Shown here: piece after piece, positions 13,226 to 60,303 of the stretch
Layout: each line of letters starts with the position of its first letter
Numbering within the stretch: the first letter of the stretch is position 1
Assembly (NCBI RefSeq): GCF_000011905.1
Contig: NC_002936.3
Location: 62,001 to 126,000 of the forward strand
Source of the DNA: Dehalococcoides mccartyi 195
Lineage (GTDB): Bacteria; Chloroflexota; Dehalococcoidia; Dehalococcoidales; Dehalococcoidaceae
Reading direction: 5' to 3'
Length of the DNA stretch: 64,000 bases
Translations under genes and position numbers: made by a program
Notes under the pieces: generated by a model
The model's input: the letters and a program-made list of their open reading frames with translations, nothing else
Databases searched by the model: none
What the model was told of the DNA's origin: nothing

Positions 13226-13843
13226 ATGAAAGTAGCTCTATACGCCAGGGTATCAACTAAAGACAAAGAGCAAAACCCGGAGCTGCAGCTCGCAGCGCTT
13301 CGTAAATACTGTGCCGACAATGGTTGGGAAATCTACCGGGAATATACAGATGAGGCTTCTGCATCAGATTTTACCGGGCGCAAGGCTTGGACGGCGCTGA
13401 TGAAGGAGGCCCAACTGAAAAAGTTCAATGTTCTGCTTGTCTGGAAACTTGACCGAGCTTTTAGATCTGTGATCCATGCCGTAAATTCCATGCAGATGCT
13501 TAATAGCTATAATGTCGGTTTTAAATCTTATATGGACTCCGGCATTGATACCACTACTCCAATGGGGAATTTTGTTTTCTCCATAATGACGGCGGCCGCA
13601 GAACTGGAGCAATCAACTATAAGACAAAGAGTTAATGCCGGAATTGCTTATGCAAAAGAGAATGGCACCAAATCAGGCAAAGCAATCGGTCGGCCGAGAA
13701 AGAGTATCGACTTCACAAAAGTTTTGGAAGCGTTCAATCGCGTGGAAATGAATTATACCAGGGCAGCCCGGCTTTTAACCGAGCAAACCGGGGTAAAAGT
13801 AACCCCGGGCTATGTTTATAACCAAATCAAGCGAGGTGGCTGA
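13226..13843 (+). CDS. Serine site-specific recombinase (resolvase/invertase type)
   Basis: A 205-residue small serine recombinase. The catalytic serine is S10 in YARVSTKD, with R8 beside it; the arginine-bearing region VWKLDRAFRS is near residue 72 and the regulatory-helix segment MTAAAELEQSTIRQRVNAG is near 115-135. The last 45 residues form a helix-turn-helix (AARLLTEQTG...TPGYVYNQIKRG) that binds the recombination site. Length is that of resolvases and invertases, not of large integrases. It could resolve element dimers or act in integration at a site such as ssrA, as described for Dehalococcoides rdh islands; its target is not visible here. Confidence 0.9.
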   Translation: MKVALYARVSTKDKEQNPELQLAALRKYCADNGWEIYREYTDEASASDFTGRKAWTALMKEAQLKKFNVLLVWKLDRAFRSVIHAVNSMQMLNSYNVGFKSYMDSGIDTTTPMGNFVFSIMTAAAELEQSTIRQRVNAGIAYAKENGTKSGKAIGRPRKSIDFTKVLEAFNRVEMNYTRAARLLTEQTGVKVTPGYVYNQIKRGG

Positions 13844-14920: not shown

Positions 14921-15205
14921 TTATTCCTTCCTGCCGCTATATGTGCGCCATACAATAAGGTTTAAGATGACAGCCAGTGTGCCAAAGACGCCAAGGTACA
15001 TAAAGGCACTCTGATACTCCATCTCCACGCTCATAGAAGAATACATATGCTGGAAGATAGAGGATACCAAAAGCAGGCTTAGCGCCATAAGGGACCATTC
15101 CCACCATTTAAAACTTATATTCTTAAACTGGGTATAGGTAATAAACCATATTGCGGCACCGCCAATAAGCATACCGACTAAAAAGTAGTATAAAGCACCA
15201 CCCAT
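14921..15205 (-). CDS. rdhB: Reductive dehalogenase membrane anchor
   Basis: A 94-residue integral membrane protein with three hydrophobic helices (YYFLVGMLIGGAAIWFI; LMALSLLLVSSIF; AFMYLGVFGTLAVILNLIVW). Length, helix count and the position 23 bases after rdhA fit the RdhB anchor that holds the catalytic RdhA on the outside of the cytoplasmic membrane. The conserved-looking segment WWEWSL precedes the second helix. It is followed by a good terminator, so rdhA-rdhB form a two-gene unit. Confidence 0.92.
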   Translation of the reverse strand: MGGALYYFLVGMLIGGAAIWFITYTQFKNISFKWWEWSLMALSLLLVSSIFQHMYSSMSVEMEYQSAFMYLGVFGTLAVILNLIVWRTYSGRKE

Positions 15206-15228: not shown

Positions 15229-16911
15229 TTAAAAAATATCTACGCTTGCGCCGCGTATTGGGTTTTCTGAGGCCCACCATTCATCCCTGCTTGGTGAGTA
15301 GCGCGGGCCGTAGCCGAAGGCTCCTTCCATATTCTTAAAGAAACCGTTAAAAACGGGCGTAGTGGCAACAGTGGACTTGACCAAGTTGTGCACCCAGGAG
15401 TTATTGCTCATAGTGAAGAAGGGGCAGACGGCCTCACAGATGGTACAGTTAATGCATTTGTGATAGTCAAGGTGCCAGCCCTCATAACCGCTTACGCAAT
15501 CCCAGTGTGGTGAGTCATAGCGCGGCCCTTCATGCGAGATAGCTTGGGTAGGACAATGCTCGGCACAGATGCCGCAGGTCTTACAGAACTCGCGGATACC
15601 GGCATCTATAGGCTTGGTGGGGGCAAGAGGCAGGTCGGTAAGCATCCTTAGGGAACCCTTGGTGTTGGAACCGTAGCGGGGCTCAATAATGCTTGATACG
15701 CGTGATTGTTCCCCAAGGCCACTTAAGTTGCCGAAGGCACTGCCCGGACCCCAAGCTTCAACTCCACCACCCATCGAGTTATAGCCAAGGCCTGCAATGA
15801 ATTGCTGAATGCGTGCCTCAACCTCTGTAAAGAGGGGATAGGCAATACAAGAGCATGGGTCCATAGGTATAGAGTGTGCATATTTAAAGCGCTTCTCAGG
15901 GAGCATGATGGTATAGGTGAAGATGTTATCCAGTGCATTGGGTACTGCTATCTTATCATCACCGCCAAAGCGTTTGTAGCTGTAATGCCCCTGGTCTGCA
16001 GGGATATCTTCAAACACAATGGGTATGGCATAATTATCTACTGGGACCGGATATTCAATGTATTCAGCCATATTTGTAATCGTATACCAAGGCCCGAGGC
16101 AAAAGGGCTGGACTTTGGCATAGAAGATTTTCTTCACGTTATCCGTTATCTTAATGGCGCCAACGGAAGAAGCCCCGAAGTAGCGCGCGGCGGTGCGCAT
16201 GATTAACAGGTTCTCTTCAGGCGTACCCTCCCACTTCGGGTAGTTGGTGGTTTTGATATCTGCGTGACCAAATTCATGCAAGCCGTTTATTCCATTCATG
16301 GTTCGCATAGAGAGATAAGGCCTAGAACCTTCATAGCGTCCATAAAGCGGGTTCTCCCAGCAATTATGTGAGCCATTCGTGGCGGCATATATTAGGGCAT
16401 CTTCCCTGCGGTCGCCATAGCCCAGTTCACCAGGGTCATAATCTGGATCAATATTTTCCTTCATCCAGTCTATGCCTGATTTTATAAAGGCACTATCACG
16501 GTATTTTTTACCCTGTAATTCTATTTCTAGTTTTGAATCAACAATGGTATGTCTTCTACCTGTATAGGTTGGAGACAGGTAATCCTCAGGTAAGAAGTAT
16601 GCTCCCTGGTTGTTCCAACCGCTGTATCTTTTTATAAGGCTCCAATCTATATTACAGGTTGGATCCTCATGATCACGCGTGGTAACCCACCATGGATGAT
16701 TGTTTACTTTATTAGCGTGGTCACCCTCTAAAGCTTTACCTGCTGACAGCAGGTCATCAACATCTTTAAACTCATGCGGCAGGTTATTCTCTGCAAGTAC
16801 TGCGGCACCCAGTGCCCCCGCACCGGCTCCTGCCAAACCTAATCTCTTCATGAAATCACGCCTTGTGACTGTAGAATGATATTTTTCACTCATACTTTTA
16901 AAATACCTCAT
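15229..16911 (-). CDS. rdhA: Reductive dehalogenase catalytic subunit
   Basis: A 560-residue corrinoid/iron-sulfur reductive dehalogenase that removes halogen from organohalides as terminal electron acceptor. A Tat signal (TRRDFMKRLGLAGAGAGALG) lies near residue 16. Two [4Fe-4S] motifs are intact in the C-terminal part: CKTCGICAEHCP and, after a distant Cys, CINCTICEAVCP. The enzyme is complete in length. The first ATG (16911) overlaps the stop of a leader ORF; the family-typical start MSEKYHS lies six codons later and has only a weak ribosome site. The substrate cannot be told from sequence. A divergent MarR-type gene with an operator dyad suggests repression control. Confidence 0.95.
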   Translation of the reverse strand: MRYFKSMSEKYHSTVTRRDFMKRLGLAGAGAGALGAAVLAENNLPHEFKDVDDLLSAGKALEGDHANKVNNHPWWVTTRDHEDPTCNIDWSLIKRYSGWNNQGAYFLPEDYLSPTYTGRRHTIVDSKLEIELQGKKYRDSAFIKSGIDWMKENIDPDYDPGELGYGDRREDALIYAATNGSHNCWENPLYGRYEGSRPYLSMRTMNGINGLHEFGHADIKTTNYPKWEGTPEENLLIMRTAARYFGASSVGAIKITDNVKKIFYAKVQPFCLGPWYTITNMAEYIEYPVPVDNYAIPIVFEDIPADQGHYSYKRFGGDDKIAVPNALDNIFTYTIMLPEKRFKYAHSIPMDPCSCIAYPLFTEVEARIQQFIAGLGYNSMGGGVEAWGPGSAFGNLSGLGEQSRVSSIIEPRYGSNTKGSLRMLTDLPLAPTKPIDAGIREFCKTCGICAEHCPTQAISHEGPRYDSPHWDCVSGYEGWHLDYHKCINCTICEAVCPFFTMSNNSWVHNLVKSTVATTPVFNGFFKNMEGAFGYGPRYSPSRDEWWASENPIRGASVDIF

Positions 16912-16973
16912 TTAAAAAAAGCTTTTCGCACTTTGGCGTCTGTCATGCGGTAGTCCGCAAGCCAAGTATCCAT
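16908..16973 (-). CDS. 21-residue leader ORF coupled to rdhA
   Basis: A short ORF begins at ATG 16973 with a perfect ribosome site (AAGGAGG, 6 bases upstream). It encodes a basic peptide starting MDTWLADYRM and ends at a TGA whose first two bases overlap the first rdhA ATG (ATGA). Neither rdhA start has a comparable site of its own, so ribosomes probably reach rdhA through this ORF. It could be a translational coupler or a regulatory leader peptide. No homology is known to me. Confidence 0.55.
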   Translation of the reverse strand: MDTWLADYRMTDAKVRKAFFK

Positions 16974-17073
16974 AACATGCCTCCTTGAAATGTTTACTCA
17001 ACGGGAAGGTTTGTTAAGTAGAAGATAGCACCTTGGAAAGCGCACGTGCCACGAAAGAATGAAAAAACAATAT

Positions 17074-17123
17074 TAAAAGTTTACTAAAACTTTTATTGAA
17101 AATTTATTAAATTAGAATATAAT
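17074..17123 (+). promoter_or_regulatory. Promoter and operator dyad of the MarR-type gene
   Basis: A perfect dyad TAAAAGTTT-N4-AAACTTTTA spans 17074-17095. It abuts a promoter with TTGAAA at 17096-17101, a 16-base spacer and TATAAT at 17118-17123, pointing to the MarR-type gene. The dyad also lies about 100 bases upstream of the rdhA leader on the other strand, so a single bound regulator could control both directions. Confidence 0.65.
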
Positions 17124-17176: not shown

Positions 17177-17710
17177 ATGGGAAACGAGCGTGATATGGAT
17201 TTAAATAACATTAAGCAGCAGGAAGATAGAATTAATACCTACGGGGAAGAGTATGTAAATCTCTCATTAATGAGTATAATAACACTTATTGGAACCATAG
17301 CAATGCGAAACTACAAATATACTATGGGTGAGTATAGTGAAAACCTAACACCGAATGAGAGCAGTTTACTTATGGAAGTATATTTTAGAGAAGAAATCGG
17401 AATCATTGACGCATGCAGGGCAACTGGTTTAAGCACTGAGAATGTCTTGCATTTATTCTCTAATATATATAACAAAGGCTACCTAAAGAAAGTAAAAAAG
17501 GGTAAGAAAACTTATTATAGTATCGCAGATAACCCACCGGGGGATTGGCAGGATGTTTTAGAAGGTTATCAAAAAGCAACAGATGCTTGTAACTATTTTT
17601 GTAAAGACTTAAGTGATGAAAAGAAGCAAGAAATTTGGGATATGCTTTTGGATATAAGGCATAATGTGAATGATTACCATGTTCGCATGTCAGGCATTAG
17701 CTTTCTCTAA
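17177..17710 (+). CDS. MarR-type regulator next to rdhAB
   Basis: A 177-residue protein with a winged-helix pattern: LTPNESSLLMEVYFREEIG, then IDACRATGLSTENVLHLFSN (recognition helix region) and NKGYLKKVKKGKKTYYSI (wing). It is transcribed away from rdhA, a layout common for MarR-type regulators of Dehalococcoides rdh operons, several of which act as repressors. The C-terminal 60 residues are helical and may form the dimer. The ribosome site GGGAGG is rather far (about 14 bases) from the ATG. Ligand and sign of control are not known. Confidence 0.82.
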   Translation: MGNERDMDLNNIKQQEDRINTYGEEYVNLSLMSIITLIGTIAMRNYKYTMGEYSENLTPNESSLLMEVYFREEIGIIDACRATGLSTENVLHLFSNIYNKGYLKKVKKGKKTYYSIADNPPGDWQDVLEGYQKATDACNYFCKDLSDEKKQEIWDMLLDIRHNVNDYHVRMSGISFL

Positions 17711-18933: not shown

Positions 18934-19793
18934 TTACCCCGGAATTAGCGCACCCTGCATTAGAGCCTTCGCAGTTATATTAGCATACTCCTTTGGCGTA
19001 GTTCCGTTCAATGCGCTGTGCGGTCTGACTTCGTTGTAGTCTCTCCGCCACTCTTCGATAACACTACGGGCATGGTCCAAGCTGAGAAACCAGTTCGTAT
19101 TCAAGCACTCATCCCGTAATCTCCCATTGAAACTCTCGATATACGCGTTTTCAATAGGTTTCCGGGTCTTATGAAGTTCAGCCTTACTCCTTTGCGATAT
19201 GCCCATTCATCCAAGGCACGTCCGGCAAATTCCGGACCATTGTCAACCGTGATGCTTTCAGGCAGTCCCCTCGTTTCTGATAGCCGGTCAAGTACTCCCG
19301 CTACTCTGCGGCCTCCCAGTGACGTATCCACCTCTATCGCCGGACATTCCCGCGTGTAGTTATCAACGATGGTAAGCGCCCGGAAACGTCTGCCGGTAAT
19401 AATACTGTCTGTTACAAAATCCATCGACCATCTCTCGTTCGTCCGACGCGGTGAAGGTAATACAATACGTAATCCGGCGGATCCTTTCCTTTTCCGTTTC
19501 TTTCTTAATGCCAACCCTTCCTCACGGTATAACCGTTCTGTACGCTTATGATTTACAACTAATCTTTCCCGTTTCAACAATATGTGCAGTCGAGGGCTGC
19601 CAAACCTCTTTCGTTGCTCCGCCAGTTCACGCAGCCGCTTACGCACCATAGCGTCATTATCCGGTTTCGGTCGGTATTGATAGACCGACGTTGATATATT
19701 AACCAACAGGCAAGCTCTTCTGATACTTAGCCCAAGGTTCTCCCTGACATGAGAGACCGCTTGCCGCTTAACCTCGGGCGTCAGAAGTTTTTT
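18934..19793 (-). pseudogene. IS3 transposase OrfB, frameshifted
   Basis: The DDE transposase part (rve domain) of the IS. Residues up to WAYRKGVRLNFIRPG are in one frame; the continuation KPIENAYIESFNGRLRDECL is in another. The switch is at about 19162, where one base is missing in CCCGGAAACC. Catalytic pieces are visible: NERWSMDFVTDS (first D), VDNGPEFAG (second D) and the ESFNGRLRDE region (E), the last one lying after the break. The natural entry is by -1 frameshifting from orfA. Confidence 0.85.
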
Positions 19794-20047
19794 GAGAGCA
19801 GTTCCTTCAGCGCCAGATTATCCAGCGCCTGGTCGGCTACAAGCTGCTTAAGACGACGGTTTTCGGCTTCCAACGATTTCAACCGTTTCAGATCGCTGAC
19901 GGTCATCCCGGCGTACTTCGCCTTCCAATTGTAGTAAGTAGCCTCGCTCATACCATGTTTGCGACAGAGATCGGCTACCTTAGCGCCGGCTTCGCCTTCC
20001 TTCATTACGGCGATGATCTGTTCTTCAGTGTATTTTCTGGCTTTCAT
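19781..20047 (-). CDS. IS3 transposase OrfA
   Basis: An 88-residue DNA-binding subunit. The N-terminal helix-turn-helix reads KYTEEQIIAVMKEGEAGAKV and HGMSEATYYNWKAKYAGM; it is followed by a leucine-zipper-like segment LKRLKSLEAENRRLKQLVAD. The end carries the slippery heptamer A-AAA-AAC (19793-19787) just before its stop, the usual site of -1 frameshifting that makes the OrfAB transposase. The gene itself is intact. Confidence 0.9.
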   Translation of the reverse strand: MKARKYTEEQIIAVMKEGEAGAKVADLCRKHGMSEATYYNWKAKYAGMTVSDLKRLKSLEAENRRLKQLVADQALDNLALKELLSKNF

Positions 20048-21695: not shown

Positions 21696-23795
21696 TGCCT
21701 ATAGACCGCCGGACACTCTTTGGGATATATGGCTTAAACTTCGGCGCCTTAGTCTGGACAAACTTAATTTCAGGGTCGTCCTTCAAATTTATTTTAGCTG
21801 TGGTAACGCCCATGTTCTGTGTAAGATTGGTGGGCGGTTTTTTACCTCTGGTGAAAAATGTCTCTTCAGGAGTTCCTTCCAGTCTCGGGGCATCTTCAGG
21901 CGGCTGGAAAACTATATCCACCTTGCCATTGGCTCGCTTTATATACCAGACAGGACGCTGATCGTCACCACTGCCCAAAGCCCCCTGTCTCCATGCTACA
22001 TCTCCGTTTTTCAGTTTAGGACGGGCAGTAGATGAGGTTTCATCACTGTCATTTCTTCTATTTTCGTGCCTGTAATCAAAATCTGGCGGCTTAATGCGCT
22101 GAGGGTCAACCCTCGGCGGCGGGTTATCCGGTGGATTAAGGGTAGGAACCCTCGGTGGCGGCACCCTTTCACCTCTGGATGGCGGTATCCGGCTGCGCAG
22201 GCTGGTATAGTCACCTCCGCCAGTGTGCAGTTTCCTTTCCAGTGTTTTAGCGGTAATTTTGGTTTTGCTCATATCACCAAAATTAGGCATACGCACAGGC
22301 AGTTTTCGTAACTCACGCTGGATAACTTTTGCCCGGCGTTCTATTTCACCCTCAAGCCGTCTGCGTTCGGTATCAAATGCTTTTGTCAGCCTGCCGGCTA
22401 CGATTAAGGCACTGGCACGTCCATCTTTTCCGGCTGTCATGGCCGCTGATCGGGCAGCTGCTATTGACTGCTGCTCAGCACGCAATAATTCCCTTACTTC
22501 AGGCACTAGATCTGGAGCTATTTGCCGGGCAGCTTCTAAACGGGCTGCGTTGGACATATTCCTTTCATCCAGTAACTCTTCCAGTTTCTCCGCCAGTTTT
22601 GGGGATTTTTCACGTATCTCAGCCAGTAAAGCCTTTTGGGTATCGGCTTCAGAGGTAAAGACCTTTTCAATCTTACCCGCTAGCTCCGGATTAGATTTAG
22701 TTAGGGCTTCATAGTTAATTTTCTTTTGCAGGTTCGGGACAAAAATATCCCGGACTGTATTGTAGATACCGCGAGCCTTCAGTTTATACAAATCTGCCAG
22801 AGTAGGGGCTTTGGCTCCAATGCCAAGATCAAGCTCGCCGCCCAGTTTGCTCACCATAGCGGTAAAGCGATCCTGTTTTTCAAAGCTGACCACTGTCCGG
22901 TTCAATAAGCTGTAAAGCTGAGTACTGGGAGCTTCCATAGTAATGCCTTCAACCTTGACTGTATTGATAGGCGCATTCAGCCTTTTGAATCCTGCATCGG
23001 CTTTTTTCCAGCCCAATTCAGATATGTCAGCAATATTTTTCCACAAACCATTTTTGAGTTGGGATACGGTGTAATGGCTAGATACCTTACTTACCTTAAC
23101 ATCATTCGCCGTATAGCGGCGGGATATATCAGCAATATCATTAGCGGTCTTTTCCGGGGTAGGAGACTGAATATCCAAATCCCCGGGCTTTCTGCCCCCG
23201 GTGAATGTATATTCAGCGGTACTGCCATAAAGTACATTATCAGGATTCTTACGCATATATGCTATGAAATCCTCATCCATACCTCTGGGCAGCGATTCTA
23301 CTTTGCCTATTACCTGGGAGAGTGGACGAGGTTTAAGCGTATCTGCTTTGCCGGCCAGTGCTCTGGTAATCTCCAGGCTTTTTTCGAACCAGTCCGGAGT
23401 AACCATTTGTAGCAGGGGAACATTGATTTTCTTCCCATCCGGGCCGACAGTGTTTAAAACTACCGGTTTACCCCTGTCATCCAGTACAGGTATAGCCCGG
23501 CTGCCAGGAGTCATCAAGGCTTCGTCTTCTATATACTTGGCGTATTGCTTAAATACAGGGTATATTTCTCCGGTAGATTTATCGCTTTTAACATAACTCC
23601 AGGCCTTAGATGCCATTTCATCCATACTTCTTGCATCTGAAATTGCATTTGGCAGGCGTGATAATCCTGAATTATAGAAGATGGCGAAAGTAGGTGTTTC
23701 CTTAATCTGCCCAACTACTACTCTACCCTCTCCATACACCTTTGTGCCGGAAGGTAGGAACCCTACAACATTGGGGCTGGCTTTACCTATTACAT
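21691..23795 (-). pseudogene. Large 5'-truncated protein with a nucleotidyltransferase-like motif
   Basis: About 700 codons remain of a longer gene; its only start candidates (a TTG at 23808) lie inside rdhA-derived sequence, so the N-terminus is lost. At about residues 194-213 it reads YGSTAEYTF...PGDLDIQ, fitting the hG[GS]-x13-DhDh signature of the Pol-beta-type nucleotidyltransferase fold (bases 23170-23229). A charged helical region follows (KVFTSEADTQKALLAEIREK), then a proline-rich segment (PPPRVPTLNPPDNPPPRVD) and a C-terminal domain. Such size and repeats fit a phage or conjugative-element structural protein with an embedded enzyme domain. The family is not recognised and the function is unknown. 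Confidence 0.6.
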
Positions 23796-24293
23796 TCCCG
23801 TGGGGCAACTATTTGTTCTCCTGAGTATGGTATGCAACTGGTATGCATGGATATGCTGATTACAGACATGCCTCTAACTCCCACTAAACCTATTGATGCC
23901 GGTATTAATAAGTTCTGCTATACCTACAAAATATGCGCGGAAAGCTGCCCGTCCGGTGCTCTATCTATGGATACGGACCCGGTTTATGATGTAGACCCGG
24001 AATGGCGCCCCGGAGCTTTGGATGTACCTTATGCTCATAAAGCCTGGCATATGAATAACTATAGGTGTTATTTCTGTGCTCAGTGCCATGCTGTTTGTCC
24101 TTTCAGCACAACCAGAGATGCTTCTATTCATAATTTTGTCATGGGAACTGTTACTACTACCAGTATCCTGAATGGTTTCTTTGCCAATATGGAGCGCACC
24201 ATGGGGTATGGGCTGAAGAATCCGGATAGCTGGTGGGACCATGATATCCCGCTGTTTGGTATTAGCACCAAATTCACCGAAAAACGGGGCTAA
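23796..24293 (+). pseudogene. rdhA: 3' fragment of a reductive dehalogenase gene
   Basis: About 165 codons of the C-terminal part of an RdhA. Homology starts at SRGATICSPEYG and goes through DMPLTPTKPIDAGINKFC, the iron-sulfur region, and the typical end (SILNGFFANMERTMGYG). The first [4Fe-4S] motif is CYTYKICAESCP: the second cysteine is a tyrosine (TAC instead of TGC), so it has decayed further since truncation. The second motif CYFCAQCHAVCP is intact. No Tat signal or corrinoid-binding core remains. The left boundary abuts the large minus-strand gene, an illegitimate junction. Confidence 0.88.
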
Positions 24294-58503: not shown

Positions 58504-60303
58504 TTAGAAAAGTTTAGCCACAGCGGCAGCTATTATCATAAGGCCTATGGCAACAGGCAGAATCCGGATAGCGTAGTTGTAAACGCCGTTCTTTTCCTCC
58601 AGAGCGGTTATCTCTGCCTTGCGTTTCTTGGCGGCGGCTTCATAACCATAACCGCTGGTAATGGCATCCCAGTAGCAGGCGTCTACGCACCGTCCGCAGT
58701 AGGTGCAGCTGGAGGTATCCAGACTATAGTCATGTACCTGATGAACAATATCACACCGCAGACATCTCTGGGCTTCCTTCTTGGCAGCTTCGGGAGACAG
58801 AGTTTTTTCAATCTCCACTTTGTCGCCACCGGCCTGTTTTACCAGACTAAGCTCTACCTGAGAGCGGTTTTGACCCTTAGGTTCGTTAAGGGGTTTGATA
58901 TTTTTTTCAGGCGGGGCCAGAGTCTCATCCAGATTGCCTTCGCCCCCCAGATATTTGTCAATCAGACCGGCTACCGAACGTCCGGCGGCCATAGCCTCAA
59001 TGACCGAGCGGGCACCGCTGATGCCGTCACCGGCGGCAAATACGCCGGGCTGGACTACGGAAAGATAATCCGCCCCCGGTTTTTCATTGGGAGTAACCGT
59101 AGTGATAACTGTATCTGCCGCTATAAAGCGGCGGGTATCATTTATTATCTCATAATGGAGTTTATTTTCTTTGTCATATCCGTAAGAGCGGATACGGAAA
59201 AGTTCTACTCCCTCAATTTTGCCGTCCAGCCTGACCAGCTTTGCAAAATCCAGTGAGGGATGAACAGTCACACCTGCATCTATAGCCCGGTCTACTTCCT
59301 CCGGGGAGGCTTCCTTGCTGCCGGCGTGGCGGCTGCAAACCAGATGCACCTCTGAGACCCCCAGGCTCTTAGCGGCAAAGGCACTGTTGTAAGCTTCGCT
59401 GCCGCCGCCTATTATTACTACTTTGTCACCCAGGCTTTCTTTGGTGGAGGATTTTATATTCTTAAGGAAATCACTGCCCTGCATCAGGTCTGATTCAACG
59501 GTTTCATCACAGGGAAGGAGCAGCCCTTCGTCCAGACCGAGTACGCCGGTGGAAAGCAGAACCGAATCGTAGCCCTGTTTTAACAGGGTCTGTACGGACT
59601 GCACCTGGCAGGAGGTATGGATGGTTACGCCCAGGTCGGTGATGGCCTTAATTTCTTTATTGAGTATATCTTTGGGCAGCTGATGCTCGGGTATACTGTA
59701 AAACATCTTGCCGCCGGCGTATTCCATAGATTCAAATATAGTTGCTTCGTGCCCCAGCAGGGTCAAAAAGTAGGCTGAGGTAAGCCCGGCTGGGCCGGAA
59801 CCGATAATAGCTACCTTTTTGCCGGTGGAAGGGGCAATTTTAAGGTTATTTTTCCAACTGCCGTCGTCATTTTCAGCGGCATATCTCTTTAAAGCCCGAA
59901 TGGCAATAGGCTCGTCAAATTTCTGGCGCTGGCACTCCAGTTCACAGGGGTGGAAACAGACATAACCGCACACTGAAGGGAAGGGTATCTTTTCTCTCAT
60001 AACAGCAGTGGCAGCCGGGGCGTTGCCCTCAGCTACAAAGCGGACATAGCGGGGGATATCCAATCCGGCGGGGCAGGCGCGGGTGCAGGGAGCGGTGCCG
60101 ACCCGTTTGGTGGGTGTCTTATCCCTGTCCAGTTTGATAGCATCTACCGGGCAGATGCTGGCACAGCGGTTACATCCGGTGCAGCGGCTCTGTGTCCAGA
60201 AAAACTCACTGCCGGCGGTGCGCTTGGTAGAAACTACCTTGCCGTCCTGTTTGATTTCTTCAGCCGGTTCCATTTTGTCTGCAGGTGCTTTTGTTTTGGC
60301 CAT
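58504..60303 (-). CDS. GltD-like Fe-S/FAD oxidoreductase with membrane anchor
   Basis: A 599-residue protein. It has a [4Fe-4S] site CTGCNRCASICP near residue 40, then the GltD-type cluster domain (CTRACPAGLDIPRYV, CGYVCFHPCELEC), FAD and NAD(P)H folds with VAIIGSGPAGLTSAYFL and KVVIIGGGSEAYNSA, and a C-terminal ferredoxin site CTYCGRCVDACYWDA after CLRCD. The last 20 residues are a membrane helix (ILPVAIGLMIIAAAVAKLF). It could move electrons between NAD(P)H, ferredoxin and the membrane; the partner is not known. The ATG at 60303 is used. Confidence 0.85.
   Translation of the reverse strand: MAKTKAPADKMEPAEEIKQDGKVVSTKRTAGSEFFWTQSRCTGCNRCASICPVDAIKLDRDKTPTKRVGTAPCTRACPAGLDIPRYVRFVAEGNAPAATAVMREKIPFPSVCGYVCFHPCELECQRQKFDEPIAIRALKRYAAENDDGSWKNNLKIAPSTGKKVAIIGSGPAGLTSAYFLTLLGHEATIFESMEYAGGKMFYSIPEHQLPKDILNKEIKAITDLGVTIHTSCQVQSVQTLLKQGYDSVLLSTGVLGLDEGLLLPCDETVESDLMQGSDFLKNIKSSTKESLGDKVVIIGGGSEAYNSAFAAKSLGVSEVHLVCSRHAGSKEASPEEVDRAIDAGVTVHPSLDFAKLVRLDGKIEGVELFRIRSYGYDKENKLHYEIINDTRRFIAADTVITTVTPNEKPGADYLSVVQPGVFAAGDGISGARSVIEAMAAGRSVAGLIDKYLGGEGNLDETLAPPEKNIKPLNEPKGQNRSQVELSLVKQAGGDKVEIEKTLSPEAAKKEAQRCLRCDIVHQVHDYSLDTSSCTYCGRCVDACYWDAITSGYGYEAAAKKRKAEITALEEKNGVYNYAIRILPVAIGLMIIAAAVAKLF

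Follow-up and report, generated by a model that had tools for sequence, protein, structure and literature searches.

The closest described counterpart of the leader studied here is the rdhA motif (WRC-34-1), which was published in 2024 as a weak riboswitch candidate with 18 unique representatives, mostly from Dehalococcoides, and which appears in the available part of that report as a structured element directly upstream of reductive dehalogenase genes (PMC11109978). Two further systems resemble it in layout. As far as the accessible text goes, the ANTAR dual-hairpin antiterminator RNAs (eut, nas and ami) carry two small tandem hexaloop hairpins in the 5′ leader, and ANTAR target loops need A1 and G4 (PMC3369931). 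According to partly available text, the stabilizing Shine-Dalgarno (STAB-SD) site of cry3A is a Shine-Dalgarno (SD)-like site well upstream of its gene that binds the 30S subunit without initiation (PMC4113751). In the portions available on iraD and the ilvB upstream open reading frame (uORF), coupling by a uORF or leader peptide likewise involves an SD and a start codon upstream and a stop near the main start. Here, we analyzed a 64,000-base stretch of the Dehalococcoides mccartyi 195 genome (bases 62001-126000 of 1,469,720; this is the window, to which all window coordinates below refer), in which an rdhA gene is preceded by a 21-codon open reading frame (ORF). We take this rdhA to be, very probably, tceA, and its leader is probably a degenerate member of a conserved element of the Dehalococcoidia.

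The element consists of an SD, an AUG, 7-9 nucleotides (nt), a TGRC box and two covarying hairpins, P1 and P2, whose GARAGA hexaloops lie exactly 20 nt from each other; its place is roughly 45-75 nt before rdhA. Like WRC-34-1, it is structured and lies directly upstream of reductive dehalogenase genes; however, the available text on WRC-34-1 mentions no upstream start codon, no tandem 20-nt hairpin register and no genes other than rdhA, a distinction drawn from text description and not from the consensus. Unlike the ANTAR targets, the loops here read G1-A2-R3-A4-G5-A6, and no terminator was seen; identity with an ANTAR target RNA was rejected because GARAGA loops break the A1/G4 rule. ANTAR domains matched in none of the 11 family genomes in a search whose control likewise matched nowhere. 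With coupled uORFs the leader shares a strong upstream ribosome site, a start codon and a stop within re-initiation distance. In contrast to iraD and ilvB as described in the parts available, peptide, frame and length vary here, and the initiation site is fixed against an RNA hairpin. Whereas the STAB-SD, in the text at hand, does not direct initiation, the present element has a start codon in about half of its members (29/57).

An upstream start codon and tandem hairpins in rdhA leaders

The 5′ regions of rdhA were collected mostly from the 11 genomes of the family (148 candidate starts, 146 kept), and 142 leaders were left once near-identical ones had been removed. An AGGAGG-type motif was present at −105 to −55 in 51 of these 142 leaders, compared with 6.9 in shuffles (maximum 14 in 200 shuffles), and control windows gave counts of 4 and 9. 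About 28-30 nt beyond AGGAGG are hairpins with GARAGA loops, often two exactly 20 nt apart and sometimes three; three GARAGA-type hairpins in a row were seen in leaders L217, L222, L227, L241 and L307. The resulting element set held 74 members for which the RdhA start was parsed and 12 for which it was not, the latter comprising, by reading, seven apparent chance matches inside genes and five element copies. From the 74, 69 were kept (two were too far away or doubtful, and three were second matches in the same leader), and removal of those at least 75% identical left 57 non-redundant elements. The tceA leader was among the 146 and 142 leaders but outside all element sets (74, 69 and 57) and the models R1 and R2.

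The start codon holds a fixed place in this set. An ATG was found 7, 8 and 9 nt upstream of TGRC in 12, 18 and 7 of the 69 leaders, respectively (37 in total), and no other ATG position exceeded 5/69, except the one overlapping TGRC itself. Among the non-redundant elements, 29 had an ATG at 7-9 nt, compared with a shuffle mean of 3.9 (maximum 12 in 2000 shuffles), and at non-rdhA loci of other families it stood at exactly 9 nt in 6/9. The uORFs occur in all three frames. Nine of the 37 ATG uORFs have 1-3 codons, and the rest extend up to 39 codons, bar one whose frame is that of rdhA and continues into the gene. Because frame and length vary, the initiation site and not the peptide appears to be conserved. 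In the non-redundant set, 22 ATG uORFs pass loop 1, and 16 of these stop between −25 and +8 of the rdhA start, compared with 10/31 for the remaining frames of those leaders (Fisher p = 0.005); fusions to rdhA numbered 0 for the ATG uORFs and 5 for the other frames. This clustering of stops supports a hand-over of ribosomes in the subset with long ORFs, as judged from sequence.

TGRC is near-invariant in the alignments A1 and A2. In A1, which contains 24 leaders and leaves out tceA, 91% of cells were paired over both hairpins, compared with 79% after shuffling, and the covariation score was 0.472 compared with 0.238; slid versions scored no higher than 0.178. Each of the four P2 pairs varies on both sides, and U-G/G-U pairs are common (13/24 at one P1 pair). 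P1 also holds in the 57-leader set (82% of cells paired), while P2, which was not part of member selection there, is weaker (59%), so many leaders have P1 alone in register. The palindromes are spaced by exactly 20 bp, close to two turns of the helix, as DNA operators of a transcription factor might be, but the frequent U-G/G-U pairs, the constancy of a non-palindromic loop on varying stems and the start codon built in at a fixed distance make a DNA site highly improbable.

Over the 11 genomes, the best R1 matches fell at 30 loci; parsing succeeded for 27 of them, and each of these 27 precedes rdhA. An order-wide scan of 156 genomes gave strong matches beyond the family in two genomes, G071 and G072; the copies examined in G071 precede rdhA, and the G072 contig ends too early to show the downstream gene. 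In a class sample of 393 genomes, matches were found in six further genomes from three other families. Downstream genes other than rdhA, seen in class-sample genomes and one named Dehalococcoidia record, encode solute-binding proteins (DctP, SBP_bac_5), CARDB and others, mostly exported-looking. A scan of genome_contigs with the P1 pattern returned 7 matches, 2 of them in Dehalococcoidia. One of the other five, at L303 (1374-1437) in an Acidimicrobiales metagenome-assembled genome, is element-like (E 8e-6), has an ATG 8 nt before TGAC and could be due to chance.

Following the published grading of the rdhA motif, the hairpins could bind a metabolite. We consider a riboswitch very unlikely: short hairpins in twos or threes, spaced at 20 nt and with hexaloops that hardly differ, resemble repeated protein sites, no junction or pseudoknot was seen, and the downstream genes differ in other families. 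An Rfam search of 17 loci gave no match except a cobalamin riboswitch. Near another rdhA, a cobalamin riboswitch at L012 (2861-3003) scored just below the gathering score.

For the group as a whole, stabilization of the STAB-SD type is the strongest rival, given the many leaders with an SD but no ATG; in it, the upstream SD would serve as a 30S landing pad that, with the hairpins, protects the 5′ end of abundant mRNAs, the start codon being incidental. Consistent with this, many hairpin-less rdhA leaders keep AGGAGG at −65 to −92, in 37 of the 62 leaders where an SD-like motif lies upstream, none of ATG, GTG and TTG follows it at 4-10 nt, and the non-rdhA downstream genes mostly encode solute-binding or exported-looking proteins; the available text on cry3A also describes 30S binding without initiation (PMC4113751). 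However, an ATG upstream of TGRC at a constant 7-9 nt is far commoner than chance predicts, and stops cluster near rdhA, which argues that initiation matters, and the constant loops on covarying stems suggest a specific binder. On balance we regard stabilization as unlikely. Leaders with AGGAGG(TG) at about −65 to −92 and no GARAGA hairpins form another class (L002, L007, L010, L015, L055, L057 and L081).

The tceA leader, its ORF and the surrounding genes

The rdhA product of the window matches TIGR02486 (E 1.1e-106, reductive dehalogenase), and the genome has 20 matches to this family model. The sequence-only reading had noted, upstream of this gene, a 21-codon ORF with AAGGAGG at a 6-base spacer and a TGA overlapping the ATG at 16911 as ATGA, and the ORF was found as described. 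With few exceptions, the collected rdhA products start M-x-x-(F/Y)H-(S/T)T-x-S-R-R-D-F-M-K, and neither of the two closest orthologues, from a sister genus (79% and 76% identical by tblastn, 80% and 77% in a further comparison), has a start codon at the position matching 16911. Because of this family N-terminus and the orthologues, the rdhA start is likely M7 (16893) and not 16911. The noted overlap with the first in-frame ATG of rdhA holds for the ATGA at 16911, but the leader ORF ends 14 nt before the likely start. When the 160 bases upstream were shuffled with dinucleotides preserved, a coupled ORF arose by chance in 8 of 5000 cases, counting any out-of-frame ORF of 10-40 codons with a comparable ribosome site and an end at −25 to +8, and among 50 window ORFs of at least 150 amino acids (aa), only rdhA has such an ORF upstream. 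Translational coupling of the leader ORF to tceA is plausible.

The sequence-only reading had named, as a check, whether a coupled ORF is conserved in front of orthologous rdhA genes. Across rdhA leaders, the SD and start-codon site is kept, but frame, length and peptide vary. Of the two closest orthologues (L031/L032), neither has a homologous ORF, and both have AAGGAGG and a GTG in frame with rdhA instead, followed by TCCGG-GAGAGA-CCGGA, a canonical P1 in the same place. The hairpin element, which the sequence-only reading did not contain, is by these alignments the most conserved part of the leader. The leader ORF as a conserved coding sequence was rejected (three frames, varying lengths and peptides, orthologues without the ORF), as was a leader-peptide attenuator (no conserved peptide or regulatory codons, three frames and widely varying lengths). 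A terminator-type attenuator in the tceA leader was also rejected, since the fold is no better than shuffles (z −0.25); the sole terminator-like match of the region sits upstream of the leader ORF.

Aligned to R1, the tceA leader reads TGGC-TTGCGG-ACTA-CCGCAT-GACA-g-ACGC-CAAAGT-GCGA (Table 1), and its spacing is that of the family, with 30 nt between AGGAGG and loop 1 and 20 nt between the two loops. Within its locus, L001, R1 scores it highest (E 0.065), and by our own estimate from the E-values, the chance of such a match at the single expected place is roughly 1e-4 to 1e-3. The leader is thus probably a degenerate member of the element. We see about an even chance that the leader ORF represents, in tceA, a cis-acting leader RNA conserved in the Dehalococcoidia, in which upstream initiation and folded hairpins, one against the other, would set rdhA expression; a leader RNA shared across the class, with a site upstream at which ribosomes load, appears to be a better reading than coupling alone.

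Several observations weigh against this view. Of the 57 non-redundant elements, 28 have no ATG at 7-9 nt, and the uORF peptide is not conserved. Loops and the inner pairs of P1 served to choose the members of A1 and A2, which biases these pairs and keeps them from being independent evidence. For tceA itself, the R1 score over the window is weak (9.7 bits, E 0.89), though the best there; with R2 it reaches 13.5 bits (E 0.44), third in the window, and it is not among the genome-wide R2 matches at E ≤ 10. Its loops have diverged, its fold is no better than that of shuffles (z −0.25), and its geometry, although found in 0 of 5000 shuffles, was scored with thresholds chosen after viewing the tceA sequence. 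The top R2 match in the window, at 59845, was set aside as a chance match in sequence that looks coding.

The weak model scores and degenerate loops, together with a good SD and a stop close to the rdhA start, would also fit ordinary lineage-specific coupling that resembles the element by chance. We hold this to be quite unlikely, since position, TGGC box, ATG distance and 30 + 20 nt spacing match the family, and both orthologues have a canonical P1 in the same place.

Searches with the tceA leader found no significant copy in its own genome and none in plasmids or viral contigs, and only short matches in the family genomes (best E 0.009, in G032). A TceA protein search of genome_contigs and viral_contigs, from which near records may be excluded, returned no relative. 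Sigma-70 motif mapping of the transcript start over 64 leaders gave no clear peak. A literature search, with most subscription journals outside its coverage, found neither an upstream start codon nor a uORF described for rdhA.

Table 1. Features of the rdhA (tceA-like) leader and gene, in window coordinates
Feature	Coordinates	Strand	Basis or remark
AAGGAGG, ribosome-binding site of leader ORF and 5′ landmark of the element	16980..16986	−	6-base spacer to ATG
Leader ORF, 21 codons, peptide MDTWLADYRMTDAKVRKAFFK then stop	16908..16973	−	ATG at 16973, 9 nt before TGGC
TGGC, the TGRC box of the element	16961..16964	−	alignment to model R1
Hairpin P1, TTGCGG-ACTA-CCGCAT then GAC; tetraloop in place of family GARAGA	16942..16960	−	R1 alignment, fold
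Degenerate hairpin P2, ACGC-CAAAGT-GCGA, 20 nt from loop 1	16926..16939	−	R1 alignment
GAGGT, weak ribosome site for M7 of rdhA, sharing bases with the stop codon of the leader ORF	16905..16909	−	spacer 11
rdhA, tceA-like reductive dehalogenase, 554 aa from likely start M7, twin-arginine (Tat) signal RRDFMK	15229..16893	−	TIGR02486 and family start
Small membrane protein gene 3′ of rdhA	14921..15205	−	position after rdhA

P2 of the tceA leader is absent from the minimum-energy fold. The small membrane protein gene is, by position, presumably rdhB/tceB; Pfam and NCBIfam searches with its product gave no match. A resolvase gene and ORFs labeled transposase-like from a reading of their translations flank rdhA (13226-13843 and 18934-20047), which fits a mobile region, and a C-terminal fragment of a truncated second rdhA lies at 23742-24293 (+). 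A perfect 8-bp inverted repeat, AAAAGTTT-ACTA-AAACTTTT, at 17075-17094 (+) stands beside a sigma70-like promoter (17096-17123 (+), 11/12) that belongs to a divergent gene (17177-17710 (+), 177 aa) with no match in Pfam or NCBIfam. The repeat is possibly an operator common to the divergent gene and rdhA.

Proposed mechanism and meaning for dehalogenase control

A ribosome at a start codon covers about 15 nt downstream. One that initiates at the upstream AUG would reach the foot of P1, and therefore upstream initiation and folded hairpins should exclude each other. A protein partner like that of ANTAR systems is suggested by near-identical hexaloops that recur at a fixed spacing; the folded pair would then probably be protein-bound, and the choice between initiation and folding would set dehalogenase expression. 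In leaders with ORFs of 1-3 codons, nothing but ribosome loading could matter, while in those with long uORFs, including tceA, a ribosome that has passed the hairpins would stop beside the weak rdhA site and may re-initiate. Because the tceA hairpins have decayed, coupling may be the main role left there, most likely as the delivery of terminating ribosomes to the weak site 14 nt further downstream. As a tentative proposal that we consider possible but more doubtful than the leader RNA itself, a putative RNA-binding factor on tandem GARAGA hairpins would compete across the class with ribosome loading at a decoy start codon, with a regulon that takes in numerous dehalogenases together with some genes for solute-binding proteins and others, and the tceA copy would have decayed to a plain hand-over.

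Genes for rdhA are numerous in Dehalococcoides, and the switching on of individual copies is poorly understood. The likely N-terminus of the window dehalogenase is corrected here. Expression of dehalogenases in other hosts normally omits the leader, and the leader bears on such expression. A conserved leader with a start codon and hairpins would be a second control point beside the promoter and a lead to its putative factor.
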